The notes beneath the pieces are model-generated. The model ran no database searches. It was not told the origin of the DNA and saw only the letters and a list, made by a program, of their open reading frames with translations. 64,000 nt of DNA, from positions 808,501 through 872,500 of the forward strand of contig OX637290.1 in NCBI GenBank assembly GCA_951799445.1. The letters run 5' to 3'. The position numbers and the translations under genes are program-made. The stretch's first letter is position 1. Every line of letters starts with the position of its first letter. Origin of the DNA: Pseudisothecium myosuroides (taxonomy: Eukaryota; Streptophyta; Bryopsida; Hypnales; Lembophyllaceae). Positions 29,622 through 55,636 of this stretch are shown here, piece by piece.

Positions 29622-29653
29622 TATATTCATTAAAATGGAGGGTGGCCGCCCTC
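29622..29653 (+). repeat. Element B left terminal repeat and hairpin
   Basis: TATATTCATTAAAATGGAG followed by the imperfect hairpin GGAGGGTGGCCGCCCTCTC, matching the transposase-side end of element A. Confidence 0.85.
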
Positions 29654-30159
29654 TCAAAATAGTCTTAGGTATTTGAAGGCACAACTAGTGAATTGCATGG
29701 GCTCTACTTTAGTTCGGCAATCTCTCAATTAATTGGTCTAAAGTAGCAATTTCCATTAAAATGAGAGTCATGCAAACAATGAACGCCTTCCAACAAATGT
29801 TGTTATGTTCCATGTCAAACATTCCATGTATTCAAGAAACAAATCGAAAATAAAACACAATAGCAAATACTTTAATATGATATTTAAATTGCACTTCCGA
29901 TATGAATATGGGAAATGCGTCACCAAAACATGTATTATCCACTAGAAATCTATATTTATGAGTTCTATTTTATGAAAATGAACTGTTTACCGTTAAAGAA
30001 AACAAAATCCAGATGTCCACATTCATGAGAACACAAAATGATGTCTTCTACGTATACGCAAAAGCATATTCTAGGCATAGAAATGACAAATAATACACTA
30101 TCATATAGACCTAAGAACATAATAAGGGAGCTTCCCTCCTGCAACCGTTGTACTTAAGA
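29654..30159. other. Subterminal noncoding region of element B
   Basis: Contains an internal copy of the terminal motif (CCATTAAAATGAGAGT at about 29753) that is also present in element A (about 24560-24575). It is otherwise AT-rich and probably the gene 1 3' region. Confidence 0.5.
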
Positions 30160-33000
30160 CTAACGATTTGCAGCCAAACTTTGCTTGATGATTTCAATTT
30201 GAGCAGGAGGAATCTTGATCTTGCAGTGTGCAGTATCTTTCTTGGTCCTACACTTCCACGCTGTCATAACAGCATCCGTGTGCTGCCAAAGTAGTAGTTC
30301 CTTTGCATCAATCTCCCAACATAGACCTCTGCCGTTGTCCCATCCAGTGTAGAATTTTTGAATATTGTCATCTATAGCTGTTGGACGGAAGTACTGAATG
30401 CGCACAGAATTTGGATGTAGTGGATCAACAAAAGGATCAGACAACGCCCTTGCAATCCACACTGGTTGCAACTCATTTTCCGCGGGAGTAATCGCAACAA
30501 AATAGCCTTCGAAGAGATCTCGAGCCACCCTGAAGGACGGTTGTGGGCGACCACTCAATGGCCCGACGTACACATCATCTTCCCCAAACTCTTCACGATC
30601 CTCTCCATCGCTATCTAATTGATCAACCCGAGTCGCCTGAACACGAGTAGTCGGCCAGAAGCCATCCTTCAAAACAGTAGAGTCAGGTAGTGGTTCTTCA
30701 AGTGCTACCTTCACACCACGCCAATAGTGCACTATATGCTCCAGTCGTCTTCGGCATTTCCCAGTGCGGTCTTGGTTGCACAAGTTCTCCCAGTACTTAA
30801 TAAACACGGATATACCCTTCACAATGTCTGCCTCAGCTTTCATTGGGACTGGCAGAACTGCCTGTGGTACTCCACGGGGCCATAAACTTTGCCCCTCCGA
30901 ATCCTCATGCCATAATTTAATTCCGCCACCTGCGCCTGAGGGCAACCAATCTAGGTCAGTGCACAACAATTTGTACTTCATGACAGGACAACCCGTGGAA
31001 TCAAGGTACAACTTCACTTGTTGGGACTTTGTGTGCCCAATCATGATATGGCTGCCAGCCAAAAATTTGCCTGCAATGAAAGCCTTGAAATCAGGCACTT
31101 CTTCTATAAGATGGGGGATAGTAGGAATGGTTTCTACATCCATGAACAACTTCATAAGCGCATGAATTGTCAGGAAATTTTCCTTCTTCAACAATATGCT
31201 CCATCTTCCAAAGAGCGCATCAATGTCGTCATGAGTATGACCCACAATCATGAAGTTCACATACACTTCACGAAAAATCTTGTTTGCAACCAGTAGAGAC
31301 CAGTAGCAAAAAACGTATCTGTTCTTGTTGTCCCCAGCGGCATTGTCCATTTGCACATTCAAAATGGGCGGCAAAGGCGTTGCTGGAACTAAGGTCTCCG
31401 GTGGCAAGGGGAGTGAGGCTTCACACATTTCCGCGCCCTTCAGAAGCGCCTTTGACAAATTTGTCGACCTTGCCCCCACAAACAATTGTCGAGAAGAAGA
31501 CTTTGGCGGCAATTCCAAATCTCGCAATAACTTTGCCATGGAGCCAACGGTGTAGTTCGAATCTTTAGGAAACATTTCCAAGCCATAATGCGCGTACCGA
31601 ACATCACCATGACCATGCGCAATCATGCTGGTGACAGCAACAGGCAATTTCGTGAGCCCGTCTAGTTCTTTAGTCTTGTGAGAGAAGACCGGGGATGCAG
31701 TTTTAGAATGGTCCATCTTGTCATGCATGATTGTCAAACACTCGTGTGAAAAACTGTGCAACTGGTAACGGTTTGCATAATACAGCTCCCTATGCGCCCG
31801 AGCAATAGCCAAGTGTCTATCTAGCCTCCTTGTCCATTTCAGAGCGCTTTCAGATCCGACAAAACAACTCTTCCGTATCTCTTGTAATCTATCACACTCC
31901 GAACACTGAGCAAAGTTATCTCCAGGCTTCTTGACCTCGTACTCCGGGAACTTTGAGGACCTAATCTTGCTCAAGTTTGAAGTTGAAACGTCCGGCAATC
32001 CGAAGGCCGCATTCACTTTGTTGATTTCTTTCATTTTACCCTTCCATTGAAAGGTAGCGGGGAGACACATGGAGACAACTTTGTCCCCTGACTTCAGAGT
32101 TCGGGTACAATGTGGCATGTGATCCGCCTCCTTGTCGAGGATGCACTTCAACGTTGCCGTGGCTTGTTCAGTATGCTTCCTTGGCTTCGACAAGCCCGTA
32201 TTACCGTGTGCACGCGCCTCTCGATCGTCCTTCCAGTATTTCAGGTAACGATAAAATGTTGCCTCCGGGACAGCAGCAATATGCATCCATGCTCGCAAGT
32301 ACACACTAATGCTTTCAATGGTCACCATCTTCCTCCCACGTGCATCAAGATGAACTGATCTGTGCACATCAGTCTTCATGTGGGACCTGAACTTAAATGA
32401 TGAGCTCTGGTTCATGCGTTCTCTGAAGGCTCGAATTTTCTCTCTTGGAAACGGCTGAACACAATTTTTGCTGCAGCAGATTTTGCTGGAAACGAGGTTG
32501 ATGGACTCTTGAGTGAGGAGCTCTTTAGACTTGAGGGCCGTCACGCGAGGTGGATTTTGAAGTAGACTTGAATAAGGCCAGGCAAAAGTTCGTGTAGGAG
32601 GATTCAGAAGAAGGGCCTACTGAGTTCTGAAATTATCCCGTAGTTCATGGTCGCGAAGACTTGCCCCAGAGCAGTGGACTCTGTCAATGGGCCAAGCCAT
32701 CAAATAGTAGATTCTCTCCTCCGGGATGTCCACTTCAGAATGAGTCCTCTTAATGTACACAGCGACGTGGGTATCCCCGAGAGGTCCATTCGCACCGAGC
32801 ACGAGGTCCGAATTGACGCTATGGCAAGTATCTTCGCCAACGAGTAGACCGCCATCGTTGTACAAAGTCACGGTTCTAGTATTCCAGAGACGACGTGGAA
32901 TTCCTTCGCATTCTGGAATTTCAACATTCACACTTTCAACCGCAGGATTTTCCTCGTCTGAATACTCCATAGGGTCAGTTGCAATGTCAGAGGAACTCAT
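30160..33000 (-). CDS. Element B gene 1: large transposase-like protein (D-D-D type)
   Basis: One frame of 946 codons from ATG at 33000 (MSSSDIATD) to TAG at 30160, open except for an in-frame TAG at 32617-32619. Element A has CAA (Gln) at that aligned codon. Numbered from 32544, the protein has a Cys-rich start (CCSKNC, residues 23-28), a CSECD pair near 214, and a core with HDKMDHSKT (about 274), NVQMDNAAGDNKNRY (about 400) and VGHTHDDIDALFGRWS (about 435). These carboxylates look like an RNase H-fold nuclease triad. The pattern resembles the DUF7869-type proteins found in many eukaryotes; that assignment is from memory. Position next to the left terminus and presence in both A and B make it the likely transposase. 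An acceptor (CAG) just upstream at 33010-33012 implies a 5' noncoding exon. Confidence 0.75.
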
Positions 33001-33009
33001 GACAGATAT

Positions 33010-33850
33010 CTGCAGAACAGGAAGCCAACATTTTGTAAGTGCTCGTCATAACGTTCATCATTTCTCTATTCAGCTCGAATCGAGCTGAATGGGATAACCA
33101 ATAGATATCAGAAGTCAACATAAAATGTTCACATACTTTTTTAAGGTAGGATCCCTGTTCAACTGCGTAAAATACTACTCGTTCAGGGGAAAGGTAATAG
33201 ATTGACCCTTAATGTAAAGGAGAGAAAATAGTATTTTATACTGTATAATGGTCAGAACCACAATTGTTGACATGAAAATATTTTGTGAAATCATTCTGAA
33301 CAACCGCAGAAATGAGAATAATATGGTCAACCCCTAAAACTGACAAGATCGGATCAGCTCGATTTGAGCTAAACGACAGCCTCTGAAGAAGTCATAGAGT
33401 CTTTTACATCTCTGTGTATTATAATGAGCTCAATTTGAGCTCCTTGCACCTGACAGTCCTTTCGTCTTTATATATACTAAATTCATTACTTTTGCTAAAA
33501 CAGGAAGAACTATAGATTTCTATTTTTCATAAATCATGTTACGCAAGCTTCTAGAATCAGCTCGAATCGAGCTGACCCATAGATGTGAGCTCGTGATGTA
33601 CTCTTAATTCTGTGAATTCAGAATAATTCATTGGAAGTATATTAAGCTCGACTCGAGCTAAATCACATTTAGAAATTTCCAGAGGTTCATGATTATGTGA
33701 TCGTCATTAAATTATAGTAGTTTCTCTAGGACACATTCAGCTCGATTTGAGCTGCCTCCTCAAGTACAAGAATTCAGAGTGGTGAGTCAATCAGCTCGAT
33801 TCGAGCTGATTAATCCCGTAAATTGCAGGACATTAAAATTATGTTCACGA
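33010..33850 (-). other. 5' intron region of gene 1
   Basis: On minus, TTCTGCAG precedes the exon that carries the ATG, so the region up to at least 33810 is probably an intron in the 5' untranslated part. The donor is not identified. All seven palindromes of cluster 1 lie here. Confidence 0.45.
33072..33807. repeat. AGCTCGANTCGAGCT palindromes, cluster 1 (7 copies)
   Basis: At 33072, 33356, 33427, 33559, 33655, 33739 and 33793 (15 bp each). Perfect or one to two changes. Most are embedded in longer symmetry such as TTCAGCTCGAATCGAGCTGAA. They lie upstream of the gene 1 start. Confidence 0.95.
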
Positions 33851-33859
33851 TTTTGTAAT

Positions 33860-34500: not shown

Positions 34501-34672
34501 CGTAGGTTGTAATTATGTCACTGACATTTTTGGGTAATATTAGTTGGGCGCATTCCCCTCGCTTTTTCCTCAGAAAGGGTGATAACAACGGTTTCGGATT
34601 ATATTTCAAACATGAATTTCGGATTTACAGGATACCGAAAATCATGACATTTAGTTCCGATTTTGTACGGTA

Positions 34673-34700
34673 TTAGGGTTTAGGGTTTAGGGTTTAGGGT
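34673..34700 (+). repeat. Telomere-type TTTAGGG repeat, about four units
   Basis: Consecutive perfect TTAGGGT units between GTACGGTA and ACCAAGC. TTTAGGG is the plant-type telomere repeat. It lies inside element B, so this is an interstitial copy. Confidence 0.9.
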
Positions 34701-34751
34701 ACCAAGCACACCCTCGCGGGATGCACGGTCCAAGAGATCTGAACGTGACAT

Positions 34752-34814: not shown

Positions 34815-36580
34815 TAAAGGTATGGATTGTAAAATACAGTACCTCTTCATCCCCTAAATGCCCAAGGCCTCTGTGTAGCTTCTTGAAGTTTGCTCTGAAT
34901 TGAACAAAAAATCAGCATTTCATAAGTTGTACCAATTTCTTCTGAATTGTAACCTTACATATTGAAACTAGAATGTTACAGATCACAGAGGGGGAAAAAA
35001 CATAACAATATCACGTACAAATTGAAAGATTATAATGTTTGATCATGAGGGTGTTAAAACTAAGAAAAATTTTCAATTCTATTTAAACATGTCAACTCTA
35101 AAAAGATCGTCACTCCAAAAATATGAGGTTGAAGTGCGTAGCATGCACAACCACAATCAATTCATGGTTTTTCAAAATGTAGTCTACAATTTTTTTAAAT
35201 AAATTTCGAAGGTCATTTTTCCTCAAACATCTACTGTATTTGAGGCTCATTTCGAAGAGCCTTCAACACTACGGGAAGTCAATATTGCAACGAGTATGCT
35301 TGCACAAAATCTTGAATAGCAAAATCATAATCCTTCATTAATTTTTAGGATCAGCTCCTTGATCCTAAAACTAGATTTCAAAAAGAGTAATTTTAAAATT
35401 TTAAACTACTAAAAATAGCAACTTCATTGGCTTTCACTTGACTTCAAAGTTCTCGAAATACCAGAAACTGGTGACTCGGGCATGTAGGGGATAAAAAAAA
35501 ATCTGTCATGTACATTAAATAAATCCAATCCCATTAGTCACTATTGTGTCCTGTGATGTCGCCACAACCAAATAAAGGGGGACAAGTCAATTTTAAAACA
35601 AAAAAAGGCCTCAGAAGTCTATAACTTCCCTACTATGATAAGTCTACGCACTACAAAACAAAGCCCGTGCTCCCCTCCTTGTCAAGGGCTTTCAAATGGT
35701 ATTCTTTATGTGTCCTAAAAAATATTTTGTCTAACTTCGGCCTTATTAATGTGACCCAAACATACGGTATGTGTATAAAATAATATAACTCATATTCTAT
35801 TGAAGGTGATGTCTTTGATCTTCTTTGACAACATTGTTAAAAAAATTTACCGCTGTGAAAAGAAAATATATACAATTTAAATGAAAGATAAGCAAGTTCA
35901 AAATTCATATGAAAAATGACATGTTCAGGATCTCTACGTGAGAGATCACTACTATGGATAAACTCTATCAAGACGTGCGCCCTGGCCATAAAAAAAATTG
36001 AGTGTGTACATATTTGGAATGTTAACAAACAATCAGTATGCCCTGATGTGTTGTTTTTTGAAGTCAATAGAAATATGAATTCATGAGAATTATTTCAATG
36101 AGCACTTTCAAATTCAATAACTTTCACACCATACGTACAAACATCAAGAGACAAATTTAGTGCACCCCTCAGGCCTTGCAAATAGTTTTCAAAAAATACC
36201 CTCTACAATACAATCCGCACATGGTCCAGAAATTGAAGTTCACAAAGCCTTACAATTGAAATACAAATAAATAGCTTCAATATTTTTTGAGATAATTAAT
36301 ATAAGTATTACTGAGTTAGATACATATCATCTACAAATCCGGAATTTTATTGCTTTCCACTTTCTTTGCATTGTACTTTACGTTTGGGTCAGATTCGTTA
36401 AAAATTAATTCAATATATAATTATACATGGCATGCAATGAATTTTTCAAAAATTACAAATAATATGGAATATTTGAAATGTGGAAAATGTTGAAGACAAT
36501 ATTCTAAATCCTCAACAAAAGAAACTATGAAAATGAAAAATGAAATAAAAAACAAATACCCATCCGGCTTTGCTGTACTT
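34815..36580. other. AT-rich, no gene seen
   Basis: Only short frames without codon structure. No repeat beyond simple sequence was recognised. Confidence 0.5.
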
Positions 36581-37590
36581 TAAATTAAATAGAACTCTAA
36601 AGTCATGAAATTGGAACGAGGAGGAAATATAAAAATATGTAGAAGTTGCAAATGTGGAAAACATTTGAAACCCATGAGTTCCTCCAATTTTCCCCTTTTT
36701 TTCTTAAATTAAAGAGGAAAACAGAAAACAAATGCCGATCACCCTTCGCTGTACTTTAAATTAAATAGAACTTTAAAGTCATGAAATTGGAACGAGGAGG
36801 AAATATAAAAATATGTAGAAGTTGCAAATGTGGGAAACATTTGAAACCCATGAGCTCCTCCAATTTGGACCTCCACTTCTAAAATTAAAAAGGAAAACAA
36901 AAAACAAATACCGGTCATTTCTGCTGTACTTTAAATTAAATAAAAGTTTAAAGTCAAGAAATTGGAACGAGGAGGAAATATAAAAATATGTAGAAGTTGC
37001 AAATGTGGGAAACATTTGAAACCCATGAGCTCCTCCAATTTGGACCTCCACTTCTAAAATAAAAAGGAAAACAAAAAACAAATACCGGTCATCCTTTGTT
37101 GTACTTTAAATTAAATAGAACTTTAAAGTCATGAAATTGGAACGAGGAGGAAATATAAAAATATGTAGAAGTTGCAAATGTGGGAAACTTTTGAAACCCA
37201 TGAACTCCTCCAATTTGCCCCTTTTTTTCTTAAATTAAAGAGGAAAACAGAAAACAAATGCCGATCACCCTTCGCTGTACTTTAATTTAAATAAAAGTTT
37301 AAAGTCATGAAATTGGAACGAGGAGGAAATATAAAAATATGTAGAAGTTGCAAATGTGGGAAACATTTGAAATCCATGAGCTCCTCCAATTTGCCCCTTT
37401 TTTTCTTAAATTAAAGAGGAAAACAGAAAACAAATACCGGTCATCCTTTGCTGTACTTTAAATTAAATAAAAGTTTAAAGTCAAGAAATTGGAACGAGGA
37501 GGAAATATAAAAATATGTAGAAGTTGCAAATGTGGGAAACTTTTGAAACCCATGAGCTCCTCGAATTTGGACCTCCACTTCAAAAATTGG
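36580..37590 (+). repeat. Tandem array, about 180-bp unit, about 5-6 copies
   Basis: Each unit contains GCTGTACTTTAAATTAAATA, GAAATTGGAACGAGGAGGAA, AAATATGTAGAAGTTGCAAA and CATGAGCTCCTCCAATTT. Copies start near 36570, 36748, 36924, 37100, 37276 and 37451. It is satellite-like, and sits in the middle of element B. Confidence 0.9.
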
Positions 37591-37599
37591 AATGAGGAG

Positions 37600-39350
37600 C
37601 AAAAAAAAATACCGCTAAGTAAAGACATCCGCTGCTGTAGGTTGAATAACTAAAAACTGTAGAGCCATTAAACATGAAATATGACAACTTTTATGCTATG
37701 AAATATAATATTTTCCTTTTGAATCCATTTGAACTTCTTCTGTCCGCAACAAAAAATTGGGAATGAAATGTGTCTTATATTTTAGTCGCCTTGAATATAA
37801 GTTGTAATGGATTCGTTTATGTGAATGCTTTATTTTTATTTTGAAGGAAATTTTACCCAATCATTAGAATTTCTGTAAATTAAAAAATAAAGACCATGAT
37901 ATATTACTATATTCATGAATCCTACATGAATGTTTATATCATTTTGAACTTCTATATTTTTTCCTTACACAACCCTATCATTCTCAAATTTATCACTTCT
38001 TGCTCTTAAATTTTTTGAAATACAACAGAAGGTCAATTGTTTATTAGACTCTTTTTGTAAATTAAGAAATGTAGCCAATGATTATAGTGTGCTTTTACAA
38101 CTACACTCAATCTATGAATAATTTCCAACTTCTATATTCTATTTTGAACACTGAAGCCTACAAACTTAATGATTTGTTTATTAGTTCTTTCAAATACAAC
38201 ACTTTCATTAGATTAAATTTATTTTTGCTTCCTCTTATAAATGAAAAAAATTAATACCATGCACATACTACATATAATAAAAATGGTTATTCATGGTTGT
38301 TTTTATAATTGGAACGCCTCTGTACTATACAAGTAACTCTAGGAATTACCAATTGGGTCTCCTTTTGCATGTATTATGGAAGACAAACAATTTTAAATTT
38401 AGGCCACTACTGTTATTCAATGTGTATTCTTGCAATTCTATCCCAAATGTGTTTAATGTGCAAAGTACTTTTACATCAAATAAATTAGCATTAGTTGTTT
38501 TCAAGAAATTAGTGGATAGTGTCACTCATTATCAGTAAACAAACTTTCTACGGTCAACAAGTAGGTGTTCAAGGGTGAGAGATTGACATTCGGATCCCTA
38601 TCAAATTTACTAGGGATTTGAATGTGCTCCATACAGTACATTGTTAAATTAGATTCAATAAGTCATGAGAATTAGGGTGCCTTATACCAAGAAATATATA
38701 CTTTTCCAAGCCATTGACGTGAATACAGAATACTGTAGATACTTCAATTTCTGTGGCTGCAGGTTTATGATATAATTACATCAATATTTAATTCAAAAGT
38801 ACTTATATATAATAATATTGACCTATTTATGGAATGTCAATTTCAAGAAGAAAAACTAGCTCGCTTGTGTAGGATGAACTACACAAAATAGTGAAACTAA
38901 ATTGCCTTGACCATTAGGTTGCCGTACTTCCAGAAAATTACTTTACAAGAAATTAGAGTCAACAAATCTTTCTACAAATCTTTTTGTTTGTATATTATAT
39001 AGAGGTTCATCAGTCCCAATTACAACAATACTTAATTCCGAAGTAATCTATTCTTGTGGAGGAACAATAAATGTTTATATAGTGTAGACGGTCAAGAAAT
39101 TTGTAATGGGCAACCTAATTTCACTATTTTGTGTAGTAGGGTGAAGGTACTAGAGTTTAGGGCAACGTTTGGGCTTGGTGTGGTTCAGGGCCGGTTATCA
39201 ATTATGGAGAAGGCGGGTATTGAGAACCGGTTACAAGTAGGGGATCAATCATGGTCGGGCGGGTATCAACCGGATATCTGGTGTGAATCCGGAAGAGGGC
39301 TAGGGTTTTGTAGAATCGTGGTTAGGGTTTGGCGCTCACTTTCTTCAGCG
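37600..39350. other. AT-rich, no gene seen
   Basis: No coding frame of note. GC content rises after 39100, where the presumed gene 2 promoter and leader begin. Confidence 0.45.
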
Positions 39351-40811: not shown

Positions 40812-41675
40812 AGCTCGAGCCGAGCTAAATTTCATTAACCTAATTTATGAAATTAGCTCGACTCGAGCTAAAATCAACAAAACCTGGCATGAAAACACAG
40901 AACACGCCCATATAAAAGCCAGGACACCCTGAAAATCAGCTCGAATCGAGCTAATTTGAAGCAAATCTATAAGAAACCACCCATTAAGCTCGACTTGAGC
41001 TAAAAGAAAAAAAGATTATAAATAATAAACAGTAAAAGAACCAAAATAAGTAAGCTCGAATCGAGCTGGGAGTACAACACTGTAAAATATTAACAAAATA
41101 TAAGTTGCGGAGATGAAGTCAGCAGAGTGCTGAACATAAAACGAAGCAAAAAAGAGCCAAACGAACAAATGCAGGCCGAGGGACACGGAGAGATTTAGCT
41201 CGACTCAAGCTGAAGAGGAAAATAACTTGAGTTAAGGGATAAACAGAAACAAATCAATTAAAAAGAATGAAGAACTAACTAAACAAGAAGTAAGCAGGTG
41301 GCTATGAACCTCGACCAGTAGTTAAATCAAAAGAGCATACCCTGTCAGCTCGATTCGAGCTAAATACATGAAATGGGATGAACGTGAAAACAAAAGAAGA
41401 GTTGAACACGGAAGCTCGAATCGAACTGAAAAAATCATATTCTCAGAAAAAAGATACAGAAAAAAAGGTGAAATCCGTAACAAACTAAATGACAAGGCGA
41501 ATGCGAAAGATAGACATGAATAGGGCAGCTAGAAAGAAGTCAGCTCGATTCGAGCTAACGGGACGGCAGGGTAGAAGCAAGTGCAGAATGAGGGGTCTGG
41601 CATTCAAGAAACTGGAAATTTATGAGGAACAATGTGTGGCAACTATGAGGTTGAATATTCAGCTCGATTCGAGCT
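40812..41675. repeat. AGCTCGANTCGAGCT palindromes, cluster 2 (10 copies)
   Basis: At 40812, 40855, 40938, 40987, 41053, 41197, 41347, 41413, 41542 and 41661. All lie inside the intron inferred between 40173 and 41716, directly before the first coding exon of gene 2. The central base varies freely (A, C, T), while the half-sites are strongly kept. Confidence 0.95.
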
Positions 41676-41716: not shown

Positions 41717-42117
41717 GATGGAGAGTCAGGTCGAGAAACTCGCGCACTACTATAAGAAGTCCGAGGTCCAGCAAGTGGAAGACAAAGGGGAAGGAGATGA
41801 CTATCTCAATGACGGAGAATACTGGGAGTTCGTGTATCCAGAGAAGGTGGATAGCTGGACTCTCCTGATGATCCCATGCTCTGAGCAAATCTGCTTCGCC
41901 GTGAAATATAAAGGGATGGGCACCTACCTCCCTCTCTCATACGACGAACGAATAAAAGACGTTGTGGAGGACGTCTTCCCCACCATCAAGGTCCACTGTG
42001 TAACAACCCAGAACGACCTTCCAGCAGACAAGCAGTACAACTTTACGCTGCACTTCGACTCTCGTTTGATTCCCTTCCACGTGACCCAATTCATGGAGTC
42101 CCTGTCGACGACGTCGT
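41717..42117 (+). CDS. Element B gene 2, N-terminal coding exon (first part)
   Basis: Begins after GCTGCAG at 41716, with ATG at 41718 (MESQVEKLAHYYKKS). It is open to 42117, where a TG...CA element is inserted. The frame resumes at 49085, giving SLSTTSF then TAG (49087) DKIKELEEKVNEK, a likely coiled-coil stretch. The segment is about 133 residues, rich in acidic and aromatic residues (YWEFVYPEKVDSWTLL), with no domain I recognise. Confidence 0.6.
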
Positions 42118-43158
42118 TGTGGGAGTACGTATCATCCGGAAAGTCCCAATTAGCAATTTAGTGGAGATAAAAGTAGCAGAACTTTTTCAATTTTTGCATT
42201 TAAATACAAAGTTAGGACTTAGATATTAGAAATAGAAATTAGTTTCTACGTAGAAAAGATAAAACTCTAAATAGGTTACGCAGTCTACCGGAAACCGTAG
42301 CCGGAAATCCGGAAAGTTCTGGAAAGTTCCGGATCGTAGGGACCTACCGCCTAGGTTCTGGCTAGGGAACTTACGGGAACGTTTTTGGCGGCGGGAACTT
42401 AGGGTTCCGACAGGTACTTAAACCCCACCGCCAGCCTCATTCAGTCTCTTTTACCCGTGCTCTTCCACGGTGCGTTAGAAGAGAGAAAGAGTGGTGAGTT
42501 AGGGCGTGTTAGGGAGAGAAAGGGAGGAAGGTGCCGATTGCACCGGATTGTCCTAGCAGTCGGTGAGATGGCGGAAGCAAGTCGATCCCGGAGGTCGGTA
42601 GTGACAGCCCGGGGCGTACGTCCGGTTGTCCCATCGGATCCGGAGCGCCTGAAGGAGTTAGAAGAGGACCTAGAAATCATGGGGTGTTTAGGATTGGTAA
42701 AACGTCCATGGAACGTCCGGAGTGAAGAGATGATTGATGAGCTGGTTTCCGGAGTGGGTAATCAGTTCGATTTGACGATTAGGGGTCGATCTAGGGCCTG
42801 GACTTCGGAGTTGTGGGCGAAGGCATACTTTACGCCGAGCAGGGGTTCCGGAATGGCGTCCCGGACGGACACTTACGCCGTGGAGGTATTCCGGAGTCAT
42901 GCGGATTCCAAGGAAGGGAACAGCGCGAGTGATTGTAAGAGTCCCCGGGATGGGCAGTTGTTAGCATTCCTCATCCCTATCTTGTATCCGGAAAAGCCCA
43001 CCCGGATTACAATGACCGTGGCAAACACTATTTTTGGAGCACTGGGAGATAGAGAGAATCCGGCTCCCAGGCCGGTCAGCTGGGGAGTGATCATTCACTC
43101 CGTAGTGGAAAAGTTAGCGGTCAATATCGCGAATAAGAAGTCAAGTCCAATTAGCCCT

Positions 43159-46100
43159 TGTCGCAGCACAGAGTAAGCGAATTCCCTGTTATACTCCCAA
43201 AAACCACTTTAAAGCATAACAAAATGACTCTAAAGATCGAACCCACGAGATTCTGTGAAGTGTCTAGCCTTATTCCCAACTTAAGCTCAGCCAGTATCCA
43301 ATTTCTCCTTTCCGGTCCTAGATCTAAAACCGGAAACAACAACACACCGAAAACAACGACCAGACCTCTCTCTATTTCTTCCAGTCTGTCAAGCTATTCG
43401 GTCCCGTAAAACTTCCACGACCCAGGATCCTAACACTTCTGATCCTGGAACTCCTCTGGACCGATCCGATCCGGTCCTCACACACGTACTCTCACTCCAC
43501 TCCGGTTTAGTTTAGCCTCTGTTTCACCATCAGAGGGTTCGCCGCTTGCTTTTGAGAGTGGCAGGCCCGCCACTCCTTCCGTGACTTATAGTGGCTGAAG
43601 ACCCACTTCTCTAATCCACTACTTCCTACACTAGCGCGGATCCGGTTTGATCTCTCACAGCCCCCCGGACAGCGATCCGGTTGGCAGGTCACACAAAGAC
43701 CCCCCGTACGATCCTCTCATACTACAACGACCTTGATGCCAAGTTCCCTCCGTGCGGAGTTAGGTGGTTACAAGCGAACTCGTCCGTTCCAACATCAACT
43801 AAAGTTCTTCCGTTTACCAACTAGGGCAGCGAGACCTCACGGGAGATCGGGCACTCAACCGGATTTCCTATCCAGGAGTTCTAGCGCGTTTAAGGACTCC
43901 TTCCCTATCCGCCTAGCCTAACAACGGTTTTCTCGCCCGGAATCGTGAACTGTAGAGGCGCTGAGGAACTGAAATACGCTCCCAACACTTAGAAAACCCA
44001 CTCACATGCACATAAGAGCAAAACAAACACACCAAGGGGAGAAATCTCTCTAGAATCTGCACACATTTTCCTAACTCCTCACCAAAACAGCCCTGCCACG
44101 CGAGGGAGAGACGTACAACAAGCAATCAATAGAAAATGCACAAAAACTCAAGGGAAAAGATTCCCAGTCTCCTTCGCAGAGACTGACTATATACATTTTA
44201 AAACTCAAAAAGTCAACAAAAAGCGGCCCGGAAAGTCCGCGCGGAACTTTCGGTCCCCGCCGAGCCGGCCAGACCGGAAAACATCCGATCCAGACCAGGC
44301 ACATCCGGATCAAATCCGGTCCGGTCCTAACTAACAAATATTTACAACTAAAATCCTAACTATCCTACCATAACCGGATCTACTCCTTGATCCGTTCCTT
44401 CGTCCATGACTTGGTCTTCGCCTTGGTCCACGCTCTGATCTTGATCCTCACCCTGATCTGGGGTCAGATCCATACTTTGATCTTTCCCCGGGTTCAGTGT
44501 GGGACTTCTCGGCGGTTCCGTTCCAAGCTGCTCGAAAACGTCCGTCAGGTTCCGGTTCCGCTCCCCTGTTTCACGTTCTGGGAGATCCGGTGACGAATCC
44601 AGGTTGATGGTGTGCGCGAGTTTCCTCCCACTCTTCTTCGACTGGGGAGTCCGATCCTTTCCTTCCGTTGGAATGCCCACGTTCGGAAAAGATCCGGGCA
44701 TTGAAAGGTCGGACAGATGGAACGACCGTGACAACGTCACTCCGTTCAGCTTCCTGCTGCTCTCCTCCATCCGGTTTGCAGCCTCTCGCGCGTCCATCAT
44801 GACTAACTCCACCTTTTCGGAGTAGTCTGTCAAAATCCGGACCAACCTGGTCCCGGATATCTTTTTCTCCTTGAGGACTCCTTCGTCAAACAACTTTGAC
44901 TTGGTGAAAGCCTCTTCGGTCGCTCCGAATGTGGCCTTCACATCCTCCGCTACTTTCCGGGTAGCCTCTGCCATCTCCCGGGTGGTAGCCATGTCCTCCT
45001 TGAGGAGCAACATTTCCGTCTTCAACGACTCGTTCTCCTCCTGGAGTCGTCGGATCTCCGCCTCTTGCTTCCGGATCTCATCCGGGCTGGAGATAAAATC
45101 TGCAACCACTCCTGCCAGGTTGCTGTTTACTGGTGCTCCCACCAGCTCGCTGATCTGATTCAGAATCAGCTTCTTCACCGTCCAGTCTGCTCGCACATCA
45201 CTCAGGATGTTGACCAGCTGGTTGAACGGATCCGTCGGATCCGATCCGGAAGGACCCGGTTCTTCAGAAACCGGTTTCTTCCCTGGACTGGAGGTCTCAA
45301 CCGGAGGGGTTGGGGTTCCTCTCCGGTTAGGAGGTGTCGTCTTCTGCCGCTTGTGCTGCGGCCGGTGTAGCTCCTCCTCTTCCTCTTCTTCCTCCTCGGA
45401 ACCGGATACTTCTTCCTGTTCTTCTTCTTCCGATTCCGATTCTCCATATTTCAGGAGTGACTCATGCATCTTCCACTCCTTCTCCTCCGTATCCGTGAGG
45501 AGTTGATGGTGCTTGTACAGATGGACGAGGTAGGGACTCAACGGAGTCGGTCTACTTCCTCCGATCTTCGGAATGAGCCGGTTGACCAGGTCAAACAAAA
45601 CCCTGGCCCAGTCCACTTTCCGTTCCCCGTTCAGGGCTCCGAAAATGAGGTTCCCGATGGCGATGGTCACCCTCGTCGGCTTCTCCGGGTGGATGATCGG
45701 AACCAGGAACTGGAGATGGTTCCGATGCCGGTCGTCCAGACAGTCTGCCACCGCGTGCCCATCCTTGGAGTCCACGTCGCACCGGAATTTCCCCCGAGTG
45801 TAACCCTCCTTCGAGGAGGCCATCCCTCGACCTCCAGACCGGAATTCATACACGGCCTTCCACATCTCCTCCGTCCAGTTGCCCGGACTTCCGCGGAGAG
45901 TTCTCTCAAACTGGTTGGAGAGCTTTCCGAGTAACTCTCGAATCATCTGCTCCTCCCTAAACCCCCAGGGTTTATCGATCAATCCTCCGCAGCCCATCTT
46001 GGCCAAATCCTCCATCAGGTTGTCCTTTTCCTTCTCGTCCGTTGGAATAACCGGACACACCATCCGGAGTTTTACTTCTGCTGCGGAGGAACTGGACGGC

Positions 46101-46646
46101 CCTGCTCTACTCTTACGGAGCTGAGGCATGGACACGAACTGTGCTAACCGGATCCTGACTGTGGCTACCTTTCCCTCTCCTAGCCGCACGTCCCGTTTCT
46201 CACCTTCGCTCTTCCGATCTCAACCGGAATACCTCTAAACTTGCAACGCACACTAAAGCGCTGCGCGCTCTAACTCACTAACACGCACATACAAACCAAC
46301 TCACAAAACAAGAAAGCAAAACGCTGGGAAGAGAGGCTAAGTATGCGCTGGAGCGAGATTTCCGCAAATGAAGATTGAAAAAGAGTGGCCACTGGATTGG
46401 TCAGCCCATATATAGTCTGATCTGTCATCATGACCAAATCCGTTCCTGACCCATTCCGATCCAACTCAGATCCGTTCTAACTGTAATCCGGTTCAGATTC
46501 AGATCAAATCCGGATTGTCATCTATTCCGTTCCATTAGTTAATTTCCGGTTATCGGTTACCTCCTACTTGAATCCGGATCCCAGATCACGATTTCCGTTC
46601 CAAGATTTAGATAACTTACAAAAAACCAAAAATTTACCTTGCGACA
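43159..46646 (-). mobile_element. TG...CA element copy ii, nested in copy i
   Basis: On minus it begins TGTCGCAAGG (46646) and ends GCTGCGACA (43159). Flanks are GCCCT (43154-43158) and GCCCC (46647-46651), a 5-bp duplication with one change. Length is 3488 bp. Excision rejoins the gag-like frame of copy i (ISP-YLFHLYH). Confidence 0.8.
44360..46129 (-). CDS. Intact gag-like protein of copy ii
   Basis: 589 residues from ATG at 46129 (MPQLRKSRAGPSSSS); a longer start with non-ATG codons is possible. It has the family core GCGGLIDKPWGF, NQFERTLRGSPGNWT, YEFRSGGRGMASS, HPEKPTRVTIAIGNLIFGAL and LSPYLVHLYKHHQLL (residues about 60-210). An acidic run (ESESEEEEQEE...) follows, then a proline-rich linker, a coiled coil (about 340-440) and an acidic C-terminal tail with DQGEDQ repeats. 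No polymerase, integrase, zinc knuckle or nuclease motif is seen. It is the only uninterrupted member of this family in the window. Confidence 0.7.
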   Translation of the reverse strand: MPQLRKSRAGPSSSSAAEVKLRMVCPVIPTDEKEKDNLMEDLAKMGCGGLIDKPWGFREEQMIRELLGKLSNQFERTLRGSPGNWTEEMWKAVYEFRSGGRGMASSKEGYTRGKFRCDVDSKDGHAVADCLDDRHRNHLQFLVPIIHPEKPTRVTIAIGNLIFGALNGERKVDWARVLFDLVNRLIPKIGGSRPTPLSPYLVHLYKHHQLLTDTEEKEWKMHESLLKYGESESEEEEQEEVSGSEEEEEEEEELHRPQHKRQKTTPPNRRGTPTPPVETSSPGKKPVSEEPGPSGSDPTDPFNQLVNILSDVRADWTVKKLILNQISELVGAPVNSNLAGVVADFISSPDEIRKQEAEIRRLQEENESLKTEMLLLKEDMATTREMAEATRKVAEDVKATFGATEEAFTKSKLFDEGVLKEKKISGTRLVRILTDYSEKVELVMMDAREAANRMEESSRKLNGVTLSRSFHLSDLSMPGSFPNVGIPTEGKDRTPQSKKSGRKLAHTINLDSSPDLPERETGERNRNLTDVFEQLGTEPPRSPTLNPGKDQSMDLTPDQGEDQDQSVDQGEDQVMDEGTDQGVDPVMVG

Positions 46647-49079
46647 GCCCCTATCTTTTCCATCTGTATCACTCCGAGGATGCACTGGCCGGACCGTAAA
46701 TGACCATATACCGGAAGGGCGAGAATTTGTTGAGGTATGGACTTCCCGCAGAAGATGAACCGGATGAGCTCGAGCCGGAAGAAGAGGAACCAGAACCGGA
46801 GCAGGCATCACCAAATGTTGGAGGGACGCGCCGGAAATCGACTGATTGGGGTGGACGGGGGAAGCAAGAAGCCGAGGAGGTAGAGAAGCCCCGAGAACCG
46901 CTTCCGGAAACAGATCAGCTAGAGGCCACCATCAAATGGCTGTTAGCTACCCGGGCACAGAATGAGCGGATGTCGGCACTGATCCGGCAAATGTGCGAGA
47001 AATTGGGTGTGAAGGAAGAAACCCAAATCCTGGTGGCGTTGGCGGAAAGGCCAAATCCGGAAGCGGTGAAGCAGCTGGAGGACCGGATTCTGACCTTGGA
47101 GCAAGAACGGGACCGGTTTCGAGAACAAGCTGCGTGGGCGGAGAAAGAGAGGATGGCCGCTGAAACAAAGGAGGGAGAAGCCCTCGATCTAGTCCGGAAT
47201 GTCAGAAGTCTGTTTGACACTCCGGCGGATATTCTTGCCAGAGCTACACTCTGGAATAATCACATGGTGAAGGATGGTCACGTGGCGGGATCGAAGGTGG
47301 TGAGCATCCTTGTGGATTTTGAAGTCCGGATTGAGGGAATGCTCAAGGAAGTCCGGCAACTGTTGGGAAACTTGGATCCGCTTGAGGGGTTAGACCAAGG
47401 CCTTTTTGACCTGGGTCAGGATCTCCAAGAAGGAGGGGCACAGAACCAGCCTTCTCCGGCAAAGAGCAGGACAATCGCCGGAACGTCGCAAGCCGGAACA
47501 GCATCGGCCCAGAAGAGGAGGTCGTTGGTAAAGCAGTTTGCGGCCTCCACTCCAGTAAAAGATGTTGTCTTAGGCGTCCCAGCCGGAAGAACTGCGTCCG
47601 TAGCAAATCTGTTCCCCGACAGACCGGTGGGTTCTACTTTCCGGGAACCACCTTTACCCGGAACGGTGTTGAATCCAGCCCGGACGGATCCGGTGAGTTT
47701 CACTCACATGCTCCAGCCCTTTCTCCAGACACCGCCACCGTCCCAGCTCATCGATCTTACTGTTCCGAAACCAAGGGGACGACGGCTACTGAGCGAGACG
47801 GACCCGGAATCGGAAGAGGGGGAGACAACTCAATCGGAGGAGGAAGAGTTGCAGCCTCCCCGGACCAGGTCGAAGACGAAGAACACCCCACCCCAGAAGA
47901 CAAGTGGATCGCCAGCTCAGGGTGGCACGTCTGTAAAGAAGGCTAAGAGGAATAAATGACTATCTAGGATAGCAGTAATTATAGTTAGGATTCTTACCAG
48001 GATGGTAGTTCCGGAACCGGATTTTCCGGATGTGGGTCCAGTAGTTCCGGACTTTTAGGAGTTAAACGATTTTGCAGTTTTCCCGGAACGGTCTTCAAGG
48101 CTGTTGCCTTTTTGTTTTTTTTGTTTGGCTGTTGGCCGGTTTTTCTGGTGGCCGTTTGGGCTGCCTTTTTGTGGGTTTTTAAGGGCAGGCCGGTTTGTTG
48201 GCCTGTCATTCCTTTTCCTTGTTCATTTAATCTGAAGCATTCAGGAAAGCACTCGTTGGATTATTCTCTTGCGTATCGCGTCTATAGTCACTTGTGTGGA
48301 TGTGTAAGTGAGAGTGTGCAAGGGGGGGGGAGTCCGGATTCGTGGACTGCCGGATTAGGCTAAGTGTGTCTTGCAGATGAGTTTTTAGACTTGCGCAGTG
48401 AGAAAGTGGCGCCTTTAAAACGCTGGTACGGTAATCCAGTGGAGACCAAGGAGTGGTCCGGAAGCTAGTCCGGAATTCGCAGGGGCGGTTCCATGCGGAG
48501 ATAGGCAACCGCCAGAGGAATATTTCCACCCGTCCGGAAGGCTAGTCAACCTCATGAGCGGTCGAGAGCTAGGAAGTCATTCCCTTAGTTCCGGAAGTCC
48601 GGTATCCGTCGTTGTAGTAAGAAGGACCTAACGCTACCCTGTGTGACCAACTTTCCGGATAGGCCATCCGGGATGTTGTGAGGATGCCACCCTGTTTACT
48701 CAACTAGATCTATTCTTGGGTTGTGTTTTGTTTTATGTTTATGTCAGATACGGAGTGGTGCAGTTCCCTACCCCTCGGAAAGAGCAAGTGAGGAACCCTC
48801 TGAGGGTAAAACAGAGGTATTGAAAACCAACTTGTTAAAAAGACGGAACCGGAAGATTGGATAGAGCCGGATCCGGAAGAGAATCCGGAAAGGAAGTAGT
48901 TCCGGAAAAGTGTTTGTGTGTTGAAAGGACCCCTCTCAAGGTGGTCAAAGTCCGGAAACTTAGAGGTCTCAAGAAACTAATTTTGAAGCAACGTCTGGAA
49001 TCTCCTGGGACGATAATTTGTGTCATCTTAGCACGTTTTTGTTGTTAAAGATACTTACGCCTAGATTACGCGCACGATA

Positions 49080-49303: not shown

Positions 49304-50129
49304 TTGACAACCAGACCCAAGGGCAGACATCTCGAAGGGGCACGCGCAACAAGCCGCCGTCGGAAAACTCTGAATGTTCCAGTTGCGAAGAGCAATTTGG
49401 CTAGCACATCAGCGGCAAAAACAGCTGAGAAAATTGGAGAGCACTCTGCTGTGGACGATATAAGCCAGGACATGAGTATCGTCCCAGAGTCGCTAATGAC
49501 AAACCGAAACCCGGACTACGAGGAGTCCAACGAGGCGTATAAGAATTTCTGGAAGACCTGCGCTGATGTGTTTCTCTACAAGATGGAGAAGAAGGAGCTC
49601 ACAATCGACAAGCTGATCCAGGCTCCGGCATCATTAAATATCTGGAGCAAGGAACAGACAATCATTGAGGGCTTGATGCACTACCTGTGCAATATGCCCG
49701 ACCACAGTCACCGGCAAACGCTCTGCGTCATGCCGACGAAGAAGCCAACCAGAGAAGGAGACGACTCGTGGTCCGAGATCAAGGACGGGGAATTCTACAT
49801 CATCAACGGCCAGCACAGTGTTTGGGCCAGAAAGCTAATGGAGGACCCAAAGTTCAACATTGACCCGGCCACGATCAAAGACATCAAAACCTGGAATTGC
49901 TACATTGCATGGACGGAGGACAAGGAGACACTCCGTTCTATTTCGGCCTACTTCAACAGAGTGAACCATTTCCAAGCGATTCAGCCGTCGTGGGCCACTA
50001 ACATACTGGGCGCCCGAAATGTCTGGGAGGAGATGGGGTCACCGCACAACCCGAAAGAGGACACAGAAGCCGGAGCTGTCAGCAACGCGAGGCGCACTAA
50101 AGCTGCATTCGAGAATAAGAAGAAGTGGA
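49304..50129 (+). CDS. Element B gene 2, ParB-like domain exon
   Basis: Basic linker (RRRKTLNVPVAK), then a segment with IIEGLMHYLCNM and GEFYIINGQHSVWARKLM, which matches the ParB/sulfiredoxin-like motif (dG-hHR-A type). It continues as WNCYIAWTEDKETLRSISAYFN. ParB-like domains bind DNA or nucleotides, and are often fused to DNA methyltransferases in prokaryotes and phages. The exon ends at ACG with donor GTAAGT at 50130. The intron (50130-50278) contains two palindromes (50143, 50224) and reads through in frame by chance. The domain call rests on motif likeness only. Confidence 0.55.
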
Positions 50130-50278
50130 CGGTAAGTGATTTAGCTCGACTCGAGCTGAACTACGCTATGCTGGCTACTCTTAAGTTGTTGTTGACTGCA
50201 CGGTCATTACCTTGTCGCAGATCAGCCCGAATCGAGCTAACAAGGATCCTGACGTTGGTTTTCTTGTTCTGGATGCAG

Positions 50279-51630
50279 GAATTCACTAAGGCCATGTAGA
50301 TGCGTTTCTCTATGATTGACGTTGCGAAATCGCATCAGAAGTCCAAAGCCAAGGACTCAAAAGGCAACACCTCCATCACAAATGAGATTAGGCTCATCAC
50401 TGCTCCTGCAGAGGTGTTCAATCTCTGGAGCGAGGTCATCTCCAGTGCTGCGCATGGCGAGCTCATTGACGCGGACTCCTTGAAGAAATTCAATGTCAAA
50501 TCGTCCTGGAAAACCGAGAACGGGATGCTGAACAAGGAATTCTTCAAGTTCTTCGGAAATCTCACGAATGAAGACCTCATTGTGCTCGCCAACCACATTC
50601 TGTTTAGAGATGGTGATAAGAGGATGTATCCGCACCCGAAGGTGACAATTAAGAAGTCATCGTCAGTTCTCGAAAGCTGTTACGTTGCGAAGGATTGGAT
50701 TGAGAGGCGCAAACGAAAGGCATTCGTGAAGAAGGAGTTGAACAAGATTGATCCGTCGTTGGGTCTGCTGAACGCGGTGGAGGAGCCTGTCCAGGACAAG
50801 TGGAAGGACTTCAAGAAGAAGTACAACGTCACCTCCGCAACGCTGAATGTACTCTTGGAGCGGCCCGAGGAGGCCTTCTTCTCCGAAGTGAAGCAGAAGA
50901 AATCGAAGAACAAGTCCACGGAACAAATTTCGGACCAGGCAGCCGAGTTCTTCAAAGTCTTCCTAAGTCAACGGAAGAATTTCGTCCCACCATCGGCAGT
51001 GGCGCACTACGCACCATACGACATCGCAAAAGACCACCACGCTCAGTGGCCAAGGGGTGCGTGGACAGTTGACAGCCCTGTAGATCTCGGGCTGGGTGTT
51101 ATCGATTTCCGATACATTCCGGGGGTGCTTTCGAAGAAGGACGGGACAATCGCAATTCCGTACTTCAACACCGTCATCGTGTCTTTGAGAAGGAAGCAGC
51201 AGCCAAAATTTGAGGACGTCCCGGCTTGGCTTTTTATATGTGCGGACATGCAGGAGCAGACGCAGGTGATTGCCTTCGTCGAGAACAATGACGTCCTCAG
51301 CACGTACAAGTGCACGTTCGAGGACTACATACCGGGACAGTACGAGCGGATGGGGGACATGGCCTCTGCCAAGGCGAAGTCGCACGACAAAGTGCTGTTG
51401 ACGTTTTTGACGAGTCCGTCATGTACGAGGGGTGGCGACATTCCGGAGTTTTTTCTGGCTTCGGACAATGATACTTTCAATAAGCCCCGGGGGTACAACG
51501 AGTTGGAATTCCATCTCTACAACACGGAGCTTCGCATGGATTTTACCTGTGGGTGATAAAGAAGTTCTGCTCTCCCGGAATGAGCGTGTTCTCTGTCTTT
51601 GCAGGAGGAAAAGTGACCTGTGCAGCAGTG
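50279..51630 (+). CDS. Element B gene 2, long exon ending in methyltransferase-like motif
   Basis: Begins EFTKAM then TAG (50297-50299), then MRFSMIDVAKSHQ in the same frame. About 420 residues follow with charged helical regions (FVKKELNKIDPSLG, EVKQKKSKNKST). The frame stops at TGA near 51556. One base added in the T-run at 51541-51544 would give YLWVIKKFCSPGMSVFSVFA, closely like the motif I region of DNA N4/N6 methyltransferases (PGD-VLD-FAG-GTT). The exon then ends at a GTGAGT donor (51631). No clear DPPW/DPPY motif is seen, so catalytic function is doubtful; a degenerate or permuted methyltransferase is my best reading. Confidence 0.45.
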
Positions 51631-51852
51631 GTGAGTTCCCTACAGCTCAATCAGCTCAAATCGAGCTGATGTACCACATCCGTTTGTTGTGTTTCCTTTT
51701 GTTGCGATAAGTGTGACTCCTGCATGATCCGATTCGTTATGGAACGAATTAGCTGGACTCGTCCTGAATCACCGAGGGATTTAGCTCGAATCGAGCTGAA
51801 GCCACTCTGTGTTCTCGAAACTGACGTCGTGTGTTAATTTCTTAACGTACAG

Positions 51853-52812: not shown

Positions 52813-53072
52813 GTGCTCCTCAATAATCACTCGATGTCGCTTGTACAGTTTAGCTCGACTCGAGCTGATTTTTGCCATAGGTTGTATGTAGTTGTATGTA
52901 GTTGTAGTCGTTTTGGAGAGACTACAATCATTTTGCTCAAACGGAACTTCCAGTGGACTGAACCATGGATTTCACACATTTTGCAGTTCATTCATGTATT
53001 TATATCTCATTTTATGAGGCTCTAATATACGGATTTCTCACCAATATTTTCTTGTACATTTGTGGCATGCAG

Positions 53073-53350: not shown

Positions 53351-53525
53351 GTATAAATCATGCTGCTCATTTGGAACCTTTTGGGGTACTCTTTTTCTAT
53401 GTTCATTTTTGTTTTAAGAATGATTTAGTCAACTCGAAAATGAGCGTCCCTGTCATTATGCGTGAAGTTCCAAATGTGCCATTACAGGGTAATAACTGGC
53501 TGCACATTTGTCTATTGTCTAGCAG

Positions 53526-54383
53526 GAATCCGATCCTTCTTGTGATGTAGGAGGAACTTCGGAGGCAGTCCATTGTCCATTGACGTCCAGGGTGGTGGAG
53601 AAGTGGATCAACGTCGTCCTGGACCTCAATGGGATATTATGTGTCTGCGAAGATTTGAAGTTTAAGGGTTGGTCAAAACGCATCCCCGATGCCGTTCAGC
53701 CGCACTCGGCTATCAATCCCGCCGTAGTGGGACCCAAGCTAGTTTACGTTCGCCCGGGATGTTCGGAGTTCCTACGTCAATTAGGCAGGATTGCATCCAT
53801 TTCTGTGTGGAGCTCGATGAAGAAGTCCACCACCAAAGAGGTGGCGAAGTATCTTTTCGACAGACTGGATAGGCCTTTGCTGATTCTCGGACAAGACTCC
53901 TGTAAGACGCTTAAGTGCAGAGATAGGACGGGAAGACCGTCGACGTACAAGGAGCCAGGCACGGAGAAGGAGTTGTTTCTTAAGAACCTTAATAACCTGT
54001 TCACTGGCATCCGAGGTAGATTCAGTGCTGAGAACACAATCATCGTGGACGATAGTCCAAATAAACACATTCTCAACAGCTCTGAGAACGTCGTTTTGCC
54101 TGAAACGTGGACGAATAGGGGACATGGTCCAAAGGACACATTTCTCCTAGAAGTCCTGCTGCCTTGGTTTCAGGGCCTGCACCTAGCTCAAGAGGAAGGA
54201 CTGAAGGCGTTTAGGGGAACGGCGGTTGCTAGAATTGGTCGACGGATGCTCTGCGACGAGAGAAACCATCGGGAATACGACAAGCTGATGGAGATCGTCA
54301 CAGCGTCGCCATTTATTCGCTAGAGCTAGAGTGAGGAGTTCGTAGCTTAGGACGTACGGATCTGCGGGTATTTAGATTCTCAT
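53526..54383 (+). CDS. Element B gene 2, FCP1/NIF-type phosphatase domain
   Basis: After GCAG at 53525 the frame reads ESDPSCDVGG and leads to a HAD phosphatase domain of the CTD-phosphatase type. It has VVLDLNGILCV (catalytic Asp of DxDx, here DLNG as in a known plant subfamily), YVRPGCSEFLRQL, ISVWSSMKKST, LILGQDSC and IIVDDSPNKHILNSSENVVL (DDS-K motif). The second Asp of DxD is Asn, so activity on phospho-Ser is uncertain. TAG codons at 54321, 54327 and 54348 follow in frame. If they were sense, the exon would run to a donor GTAATT at 54384 in phase with the last exon; otherwise the protein ends at 54321. Confidence 0.7.
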
Positions 54384-54636
54384 GTAATTCAGCTCGAATC
54401 GACCTGATTTGCACATTTGGAACTGCCTGATGGGTTGCTTTTTTCTTAATCCAGAAAATAAAAATATTATTCTAAAATTTTGCGTCGTGAACTCTGTGCC
54501 TCAATTTAGCTCGGATCGAGCTGATTTGTTTGTTGTTTTTGGCTACGTGATTTCTGCATGTACGAATGGTTGCTGCTTAGAATTTATGGCGTTACTTGTG
54601 CTTTGTTAATATGTTTTACCTGATACTTGATTCTAG

Positions 54637-55272
54637 ATTGTGCGCACATCAATTTCGCATGATGAGGATGCTCATCTGCCATGCGCCGCGTCCGTGGACT
54701 CCATAATGGACTACGGGCAATACAAAATCTTGAGCAGAGGAAACTTCCTCTGCTTGGCGGCCACGGCAAACTCCACTATGGACTTCTCCTCCAGGCCCTT
54801 AGAAGATGGAGTGGTCGACAGCCCGCCAAGTGGAGTTTCGCGTCAACTGGCCTCTCGATCCCCTTTTCCGCCGAGGACCCAGGAACCCCTTGCTTCTCAT
54901 TTGTCGCCGGCTATCTCGGACAAGGCGACACAGAGAAGGCTGTACCAAGACGCTGCAGATACGTTATCCGCGCCAGTGTTGATGGCCGCGTTTCCGGTTG
55001 GCTCGCCTGCCTTACAAGGAGGGACTCCGTATCGTAGGAGAGTACTTCCACGTCGAAGCGTCTCATCTGGAGGTGTGCAGAAGTTCAAAGCACCTCATAG
55101 AGTCCAGCCAAGTGGATGCGTTCCTCCAGTGCATGATATGTGGGACCAAAAGTTCCTAGAATTGCAGAGGCTTCAGAGCAGGCGGGAGTACAATGAGACT
55201 AATACTAGGTACAGTCGGGGACCCGAGATTCTGAAAGCGATGGAGATGCAAAAGTGTAAATCGCACATGTAG
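54637..55272 (+). CDS. Element B gene 2, last exon
   Basis: Starts after TTCTAG (54636) in phase 0 (IVRTSISHDEDAHLPC) and ends with TAG at 55272. The C-terminal half is basic and proline-rich, with RRLYQDAAD and MWDQKFLELQRLQ, both conserved in element A (20223-20633). It could be the last exon of gene 2 or a separate short gene; a single gene is favoured by phase and by the palindrome-bearing intron 54384-54636. Fold unknown. Confidence 0.55.
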   Translation: MVRTSISHDEDAHLPCAASVDSIMDYGQYKILSRGNFLCLAATANSTMDFSSRPLEDGVVDSPPSGVSRQLASRSPFPPRTQEPLASHLSPAISDKATQRRLYQDAADTLSAPVLMAAFPVGSPALQGGTPYRRRVLPRRSVSSGGVQKFKAPHRVQPSGCVPPVHDMWDQKFLELQRLQSRREYNETNTRYSRGPEILKAMEMQKCKSHM

Positions 55273-55616
55273 GGTCTATTCATATTTTAGATTGAGTGTC
55301 TATAGGTACATACATGATAGCATTGTGTAGATATTATGTAGAACTCAAGTGCTAGAGTGAATCACACTCATGACAATTATATACATTTCTCTAGTCTTTT
55401 AAGGATCGGAAAGGAATTGCCCTACAATTTTATATTGGTCCAAAAATTTACTATAAATAGATGACCTTTTCATAATGAATGTTGTACTCCTGTCCATGTT
55501 TCAGCAAACACTCCTTGTTGTTGGTATTCTTCTCTTCTATTCTGATAGTTTTGATACGATATTTGTCCATTATTTCTCTAAAAGTTAGCTCTCGCAACTT
55601 TCATTTCACTGGAAAA
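55273..55616. other. 3' subterminal region of element B
   Basis: AT-rich 3' untranslated region and subterminal DNA. GTGAATCACACTCATGACA (55356) resembles a segment near 20100 in element A (GTGAGTGTGATTCACTCTAG, inverse orientation), so it is conserved terminal DNA. Confidence 0.55.
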
Positions 55617-55636
55617 CCCTCATTTTAATGAATATA
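55617..55636 (-). repeat. Element B right terminal inverted repeat
   Basis: Reverse complement reads TATATTCATTAAAATGAGGG followed by TTTTCCA, as at the left end of element A. Confidence 0.85.

Follow-up and report, generated by a model that had tools for sequence, protein, structure and literature searches.

What kind of transposon occupies 26 kb of a moss genome with only two large genes, and what might the second of these genes do for it? The question is raised by element B, which lies together with a smaller element, A, in a 64,000-nt stretch of Pseudisothecium myosuroides DNA (GCA_951799445.1, contig OX637290.1, positions 808,501–872,500 of the forward strand; hereafter the window). A sequence-only reading of this window had described B as a plant DNA transposon with ends at exactly 29622 and 55636, an AT target duplication and no resemblance to a named family. 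Here, we find that B is one copy of a multi-copy family of giant cut-and-paste DNA transposons. Our overall interpretation, which we regard as rather probable, is that this giant family most likely belongs to Sola1, that its transposase is encoded by gene 1, and that the protein encoded by gene 2 would bind palindromes within the element with an effect on its expression or silencing.

Element B belongs to a giant transposon family

The 16-bp end motif TATATTCATTAAAATG is present in the window on the forward strand at 19830–19845 and 29622–29637 and on the reverse strand at 24691–24706 and 55621–55636, which confirms that A and B have their inverted ends in common. Allowing up to three mismatches, six places in the window matched, compared to a mean of 1.17 in shuffled sequence. 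A search on both strands of the 387.9-Mb assembly (where the window corresponds to G000:C4:808501-872500) yielded 175 exact matches, 94 forward and 81 reverse, while the reversed pattern used as a control yielded none on either strand.

Pairing of forward and reverse neighbours within 90 kb was analyzed for 100 of these 175 places. Among the 100 listed places, 72 formed 36 inward-facing pairs with a median span of 20.6 kb; 33 pairs spanned 4.9–32.3 kb and 32 spanned 17–33 kb. Other arrangements were rare, with two reverse-forward neighbours closer than 40 kb (one being the gap between A and B) and a single case of same-strand neighbours. Further copies with these ends are thus present in the genome. 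The view that B is one contiguous DNA transposon of a plant, measuring ~19 kb net and containing two large genes, is supported.

To place the ends, we retrieved 400 bp at each end of 30 genome pairs (of the 36 pairs, two are the window elements and four were outside this test). In all 30 pairs, the five bases outside the 16-mer are AACAT or AACGT at the low end; at the high end they are ATGTT, ACGTT or GCGTT. These five bases belong to the inverted repeat, which is therefore 21 bp long and ends 5 bp further out. The next four bases were duplicated exactly in 28 of the 30 pairs and at both window elements, with CTCA-AATAT[..]ATGTT-CTCA for B and TTCA-AACGT[..]ATGTT-TTCA for A. The two failures were pairs L084 and L088; the latter, with a span of 61.8 kb, was possibly paired wrongly.

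Element B accordingly extends from 29617 to 55641 (gene 1 reading on the reverse strand), with terminal inverted repeats at 29617–29637 on the gene-1 side (forward strand; outer five bases AATAT, followed by a G+C-rich inverted repeat) and at 55621–55641 on the gene-2 side (reverse strand). Comparison with the ends of the genome pairs places the target duplication CTCA at 29613–29616 and 55642–55645. The proposed AT duplication is rejected, as is the pair of ends derived from it: genome copies show a 4-bp duplication, and AT is the innermost part of the five outer bases of the 21-bp repeat. Some 130 bp inward from the gene-1 end, within a block that A and B have conserved, the end motif recurs in imperfect form (24563–24578 and 29748–29763), perhaps as a second transposase site.

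The AT-based ends had been deduced from the reverse-transcriptase frame of a retrotransposon in which B sits. Joining the flanks with one AT does give an open frame, with a single stop well upstream, while four other registers contain at least three stops in their best frame. However, this test is blind to the shift of the ends because the two cuts differ by 12 bp, that is, four codons, and the corrected cut leaves the frame likewise open. The empty-site evidence concerns an insertion nested in B, which another copy lacks.

Copies and layout

Ten genome copies were read, four of them fetched without their last 0.25–1.2 kb. All ten contain gene 1, gene 2 and the NIF part of gene 2, with the two genes in opposite orientation, pointing outward from a central non-coding region. 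Four copies are B-type and six are A-type; two showed no end type by string match and were both placed in the A-type, C1:24149743 from its ends and C6:1006318 from its hairpin. Identities, calculated from summed alignments of at least 200 bases, were 93.1–97.5% within the A-type, 92.1–95.0% within the B-type and 72.6–77.6% between types, except for one pair at 84.5%. An unbroken gene-1 frame of 946–956 codons was found in three of 12 elements (the ten copies and the two window elements), a count in which the shortened fetch can itself truncate the frame, as for C3:4298924.

Element A (19825–24711 with corrected ends, forward strand, duplication TTCA) is 90.4–91.2% identical to the six A-type copies, 74.0–75.7% to the four B-type copies and 74.0% to B. 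By these identities, A is no small relative of B; it is a 4.9-kb internally deleted copy of the second, A-type family and lacks most of gene 2. One further pair, L074/L075 (G000:C7:27257652-27281996), combines a B-type end on one side with an A-type end on the other and has an exact CTAA duplication; it is possibly a recombinant that transposed.

Element B measures 26,025 bp, or ~19,058 bp without the nested insertion and one GTCGTT. The 6.96-kb insertion (42119–49079) is flanked by the 6-bp duplication GTCGTT and is absent from another B-type copy, which otherwise aligns with B from end to end at 94.3–96.5% in the main blocks. Its gag-like frames lie at 42403–43173 and 46700–47956 on the forward strand and at 44363–46219 on the reverse strand; they perhaps represent one element inside another. 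The central non-coding region of B holds a 176-bp tandem array (36530–37614), which is longer in another copy, and four tandem TTAGGGT units at 34673–34700, which we take to resemble the telo boxes of plant promoters. A second insertion at 34–40.8 kb was considered and discarded; this region lacks coding evidence and mostly aligns with another copy, where the tandem repeat is ~1 kb longer.

Gene 1 encodes a predicted DDD/E transposase

Gene 1 (30163–33000, reverse strand) comprises 946 codons with one in-frame TAG at 32617–32619 and belongs to DUF7869 (PF25273). Its predicted structure contains an RNase H core with three conserved Asp positions, which suggests that DUF7869 is a DDD/E transposase. 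In a Pfam search of 50 members at E ≤ 1, DUF7869 matched all 50, and none of the other families among the 17 listed is a transposase catalytic family. The nearest named relatives are from Physcomitrium and Ceratodon. DUF7869 is mentioned in no paper of the literature searched, a collection that most subscription papers fall outside.

Searches of gene 1 returned nothing from BFVD at E ≤ 0.001 and nothing among PDB sequences at E ≤ 1, and Rfam gave no match at its gathering score. No locus related to gene 1 or gene 2 was present among viral contigs; two of these contigs matched the end motif when it was extended by RRRG, neither of them similar to the window. A 4.3-kb contig in a cyanobacterial metagenome bin (L001; CADCWO010000071.1) carries an intact DUF7869 gene and four of the palindromes described below at no more than one mismatch, and is probably misplaced moss DNA.

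Gene 2 combines three predicted domains

Gene 2 reads on the forward strand. Its first coding exon (41718–42113; limits inferred from relatives) runs up to the nested insertion and is followed by a ParB-like domain (approximately 49500–50098), a beta-class N6-adenine methyltransferase-like domain (approximately 50900–51648) and a NIF (CTD-phosphatase-like) domain at 53523–54320. An open frame on its 3′ side (54637–55269, forward strand) has a tail that is retained in element A.

The first domain is predicted to adopt the ParB N-terminal fold. The ParB box is of the GERR type; in its place, all 14 gene-2 members have NGQH(S/N)V, which reads INGQHSV in B. The second domain has the predicted fold of beta-class N6-adenine DNA methyltransferases, enzymes with a catalytic (D/N/S)PP(Y/F/W) motif and a SAM-binding FxGxG motif. 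Both motifs have been lost: the DPPY-type motif is replaced by D(L/F)RxxP in all 11 covering members, and motif I is degenerate in all ten covering members, with K in place of the last G. The NIF domain (PF03031) scores 61 bits against a cut-off of 21.8 and reads DLNGI at the position of DxDx, the catalytic motif of NIF/CTD phosphatases. Among PDB sequences, gene 2 gave a single, chance-like match (E 0.62). Its relatives extend to Physcomitrium, and dN/dS was 0.18–0.23 in the four segments where it was computable. The architecture of ParB-like, degenerate methyltransferase-like and NIF domains looks new.

Each family carries its own palindrome

The 15-bp palindrome AGCTCGANTCGAGCT occurs 24 times in B at up to two mismatches, compared to a mean of 0.17 and a maximum of two in 30 shuffles. 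Seven sites lie upstream of gene 1 (33072–33807), ten upstream of gene 2 (40812–41675), and the remaining seven within gene 2, either in introns or between exons: two in an intron bounded by GTAAGT...GCAG (50143–50238), two in the next intron (51653–51797, with a further site at three mismatches), one outside the inferred exons (52852–52866) and two between the NIF frame and the last open frame (54391–54522). None of the 24 falls in the exons (42% of the net element, with limits inferred from relatives), and the distances to the nearest element ends are 3.4 kb and 1.1 kb. The sites contain 12 base changes, seven of which are C-to-T or G-to-A at the two CpG steps.

Element A has four sites of a second palindrome, AGGTCGANTCGACCT, at no more than one mismatch upstream of its gene 1 (20658–21222); 300 shuffles gave none. 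The two palindromes differ by C to G on one arm and G to C on the other. At no more than one mismatch, the four B-type copies contain 21–24 B-type sites each and the six A-type copies 14–16 A-type sites each; a single site in every A-type copy, and likewise in three of the four B-type copies, matches both patterns. When exact matches are counted, none of the ten copies contains the palindrome of the other type, which means that the third base changed in concert on the two arms.

Palindromes at no more than one mismatch were absent from four arbitrary 10-kb stretches of the genome and from the 33 kb of the window outside the elements, where a single site with two mismatches occurs at 18923. A 19-bp palindrome searched in the viral contigs gave no match. 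GANTC, the site of CcrM, was considered as a fixed core; it is unsupported as a rule because only part of the sites retain it (17 of 24 in the window, 69 of 90 B-type and 47 of 88 A-type). The literature searched, mostly outside subscription journals, contained no description of element B or of such palindromes as binding sites of accessory proteins, and the family-specific, co-diverged palindromes look new.

Probable assignment to Sola1

Sola elements are defined by DDD transposases and 4-bp target duplications, and Sola1 transposons were reportedly described by Bao et al. in 2009. The duplication found here is of this length in 28 of 30 genome pairs and at both window elements. We consider B to be probably Sola1, a superfamily already known, because this fits its 4-bp duplication, its predicted DDD/E core and its opposite-strand ParB-methyltransferase-like gene; the claim that no named family matches is therefore doubtful. 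Physcomitrella Sola1 is listed in a review table (PMC9033089); the accessible part of PMC7466625 does not mention Sola. In Ectocarpus, excerpts of PMC12477816 describe Sola1-1_Ec32, a 21.5-kb element with a ParB-methyltransferase gene on the strand opposite the transposase, among giant algal DNA transposons with such genes, and its authors suggest that proteins of this type bind and modify their own element.

Alternatively, DUF7869 transposases with 4-bp duplications could form a new superfamily of their own. The uniform DUF7869 assignment of the 50 members, with no other transposase catalytic family among the 17 listed, and the silence of the searched literature on DUF7869 speak for such a group. 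The duplication, the predicted core, the moss-like host and the opposite-strand gene nevertheless fit Sola1 as far as the accessible descriptions go, and we think a new superfamily unlikely.

A possible role for gene 2

If the predicted folds hold, the gene-1 transposase would pair the 21-bp ends and insert the element with a 4-bp stagger. The gene-2 protein, with its ParB-like domain, methyltransferase fold devoid of catalytic motifs and CTD-phosphatase-like domain, would most likely bind the palindromes of its family, which lie around both promoters and within the gene-2 introns, and would thereby influence how the element is expressed or silenced, in a way similar to VANC in the VANDAL elements of Arabidopsis. 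The position of the palindromes, their co-divergence and the parallel with VANC point in this direction and suggest that the element brings its own control system.

A competing explanation, to which we give a minor share of the probability, is that the palindromes are binding sites of the transposase and that gene 2 has no relation to them. Subterminal repeats serve as transposase-binding sites in CACTA elements. In line with this, palindromes persist next to gene 1 in element A, from which most of gene 2 is missing, and the 4.3-kb contig L001 combines gene 1 with palindromes, although it is too short to judge gene 2. In B, however, the sites do not lie at the termini, the nearest ends being 3.4 kb and 1.1 kb away; they cluster upstream of both genes and occur within gene-2 introns.

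Control of the element by gene 2 might also take a more specific form, which we put forward as a doubtful variant. In such a partition-like system, the ParB-fold protein would load on the palindromes as functional analogues of parS and spread over the element, the dead methyltransferase domain and the phosphatase domain would keep the promoters open, and protein and palindrome would co-diverge, each family controlling only itself.

That gene 2 is a chance capture, a passenger of no use to the element, seems improbable. NIF phosphatases are host-type proteins, which would suit a captured gene. Some giant algal elements also carry genes of unknown use (excerpts of PMC12477816). Against a passenger, gene 2 is present in ten of ten copies of two diverged families, its dN/dS is 0.18–0.23 in the four computable segments, and it has relatives in Physcomitrium. 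An assembly artefact joining unlinked ends is hardly credible given 36 separate inward pairs, 33 of them spanning 4.9–32.3 kb, and matching 4-bp duplications in 28 of 30 tested.

These findings extend an arrangement similar to the ParB-methyltransferase genes of algal giants, as described in the accessible part of PMC12477816, to the genome of a moss, a land plant, in which the end motif has 175 exact matches, the element ends are placed exactly and the two families coexist. The palindromes provide a concrete candidate binding site for ParB-type accessory proteins together with a natural specificity swap between families, so that the role of such proteins in eukaryotic transposons becomes directly testable. 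Furthermore, a transposase function is suggested for DUF7869.

Other repeats in the window

In the retrotransposon hit by B, a stretch upstream of the reverse transcriptase (55891–56838, reverse strand) shows weak similarity to DNMT3A (E 0.012), and Pfam returned nothing for it at E ≤ 0.01; the stretch may represent a cytosine methyltransferase domain carried by a plant retrotransposon. Tandem arrays outside the elements lie at 1994–2398 (~50/99 bp) and 11732–11908 (46/94 bp).

Comparison with known systems

ISL2EU elements have a 2-bp target duplication. Like B, ISL2EU of the PHIS group has two genes, one of them accessory (excerpts of PMC4482050), but the accessory protein there contains a YqaJ exonuclease domain and the duplication of B is 4 bp. 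Compared with bacterial ParB-parS, gene 2 has NGQH(S/N)V in place of the GERR-type box, belongs to a eukaryotic transposon and is known here from sequence and predicted fold. It differs from CcrM-type beta-class N6-adenine DNA methyltransferases in lacking the DPPY-type motif (11 of 11) and in its degenerate motif I (ten of ten).

With Sola1, B has in common the 4-bp duplication, the predicted DDD/E transposase and a moss host, and the giant Ectocarpus element has a similar opposite-strand gene. The differences lie in gene 2, with its NIF domain and its loss of the catalytic motifs of methyltransferases, and in the family-specific palindromes; the transposases are compared by description.

VANDALs are Mutator-like elements. 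According to excerpts of PMC5735166, VANDAL21 encodes the anti-silencing protein VANC, and short motifs (YAGTATTAY) lie upstream of VANA and in the introns of VANB and VANC and differ between related VANDAL families. VANC is another protein, with a motif distinct from the 15-bp palindrome of B, where the effect is proposed by analogy; the two systems nonetheless agree in an element-encoded protein, in motifs both upstream and in introns, and in the change of these motifs from family to family.

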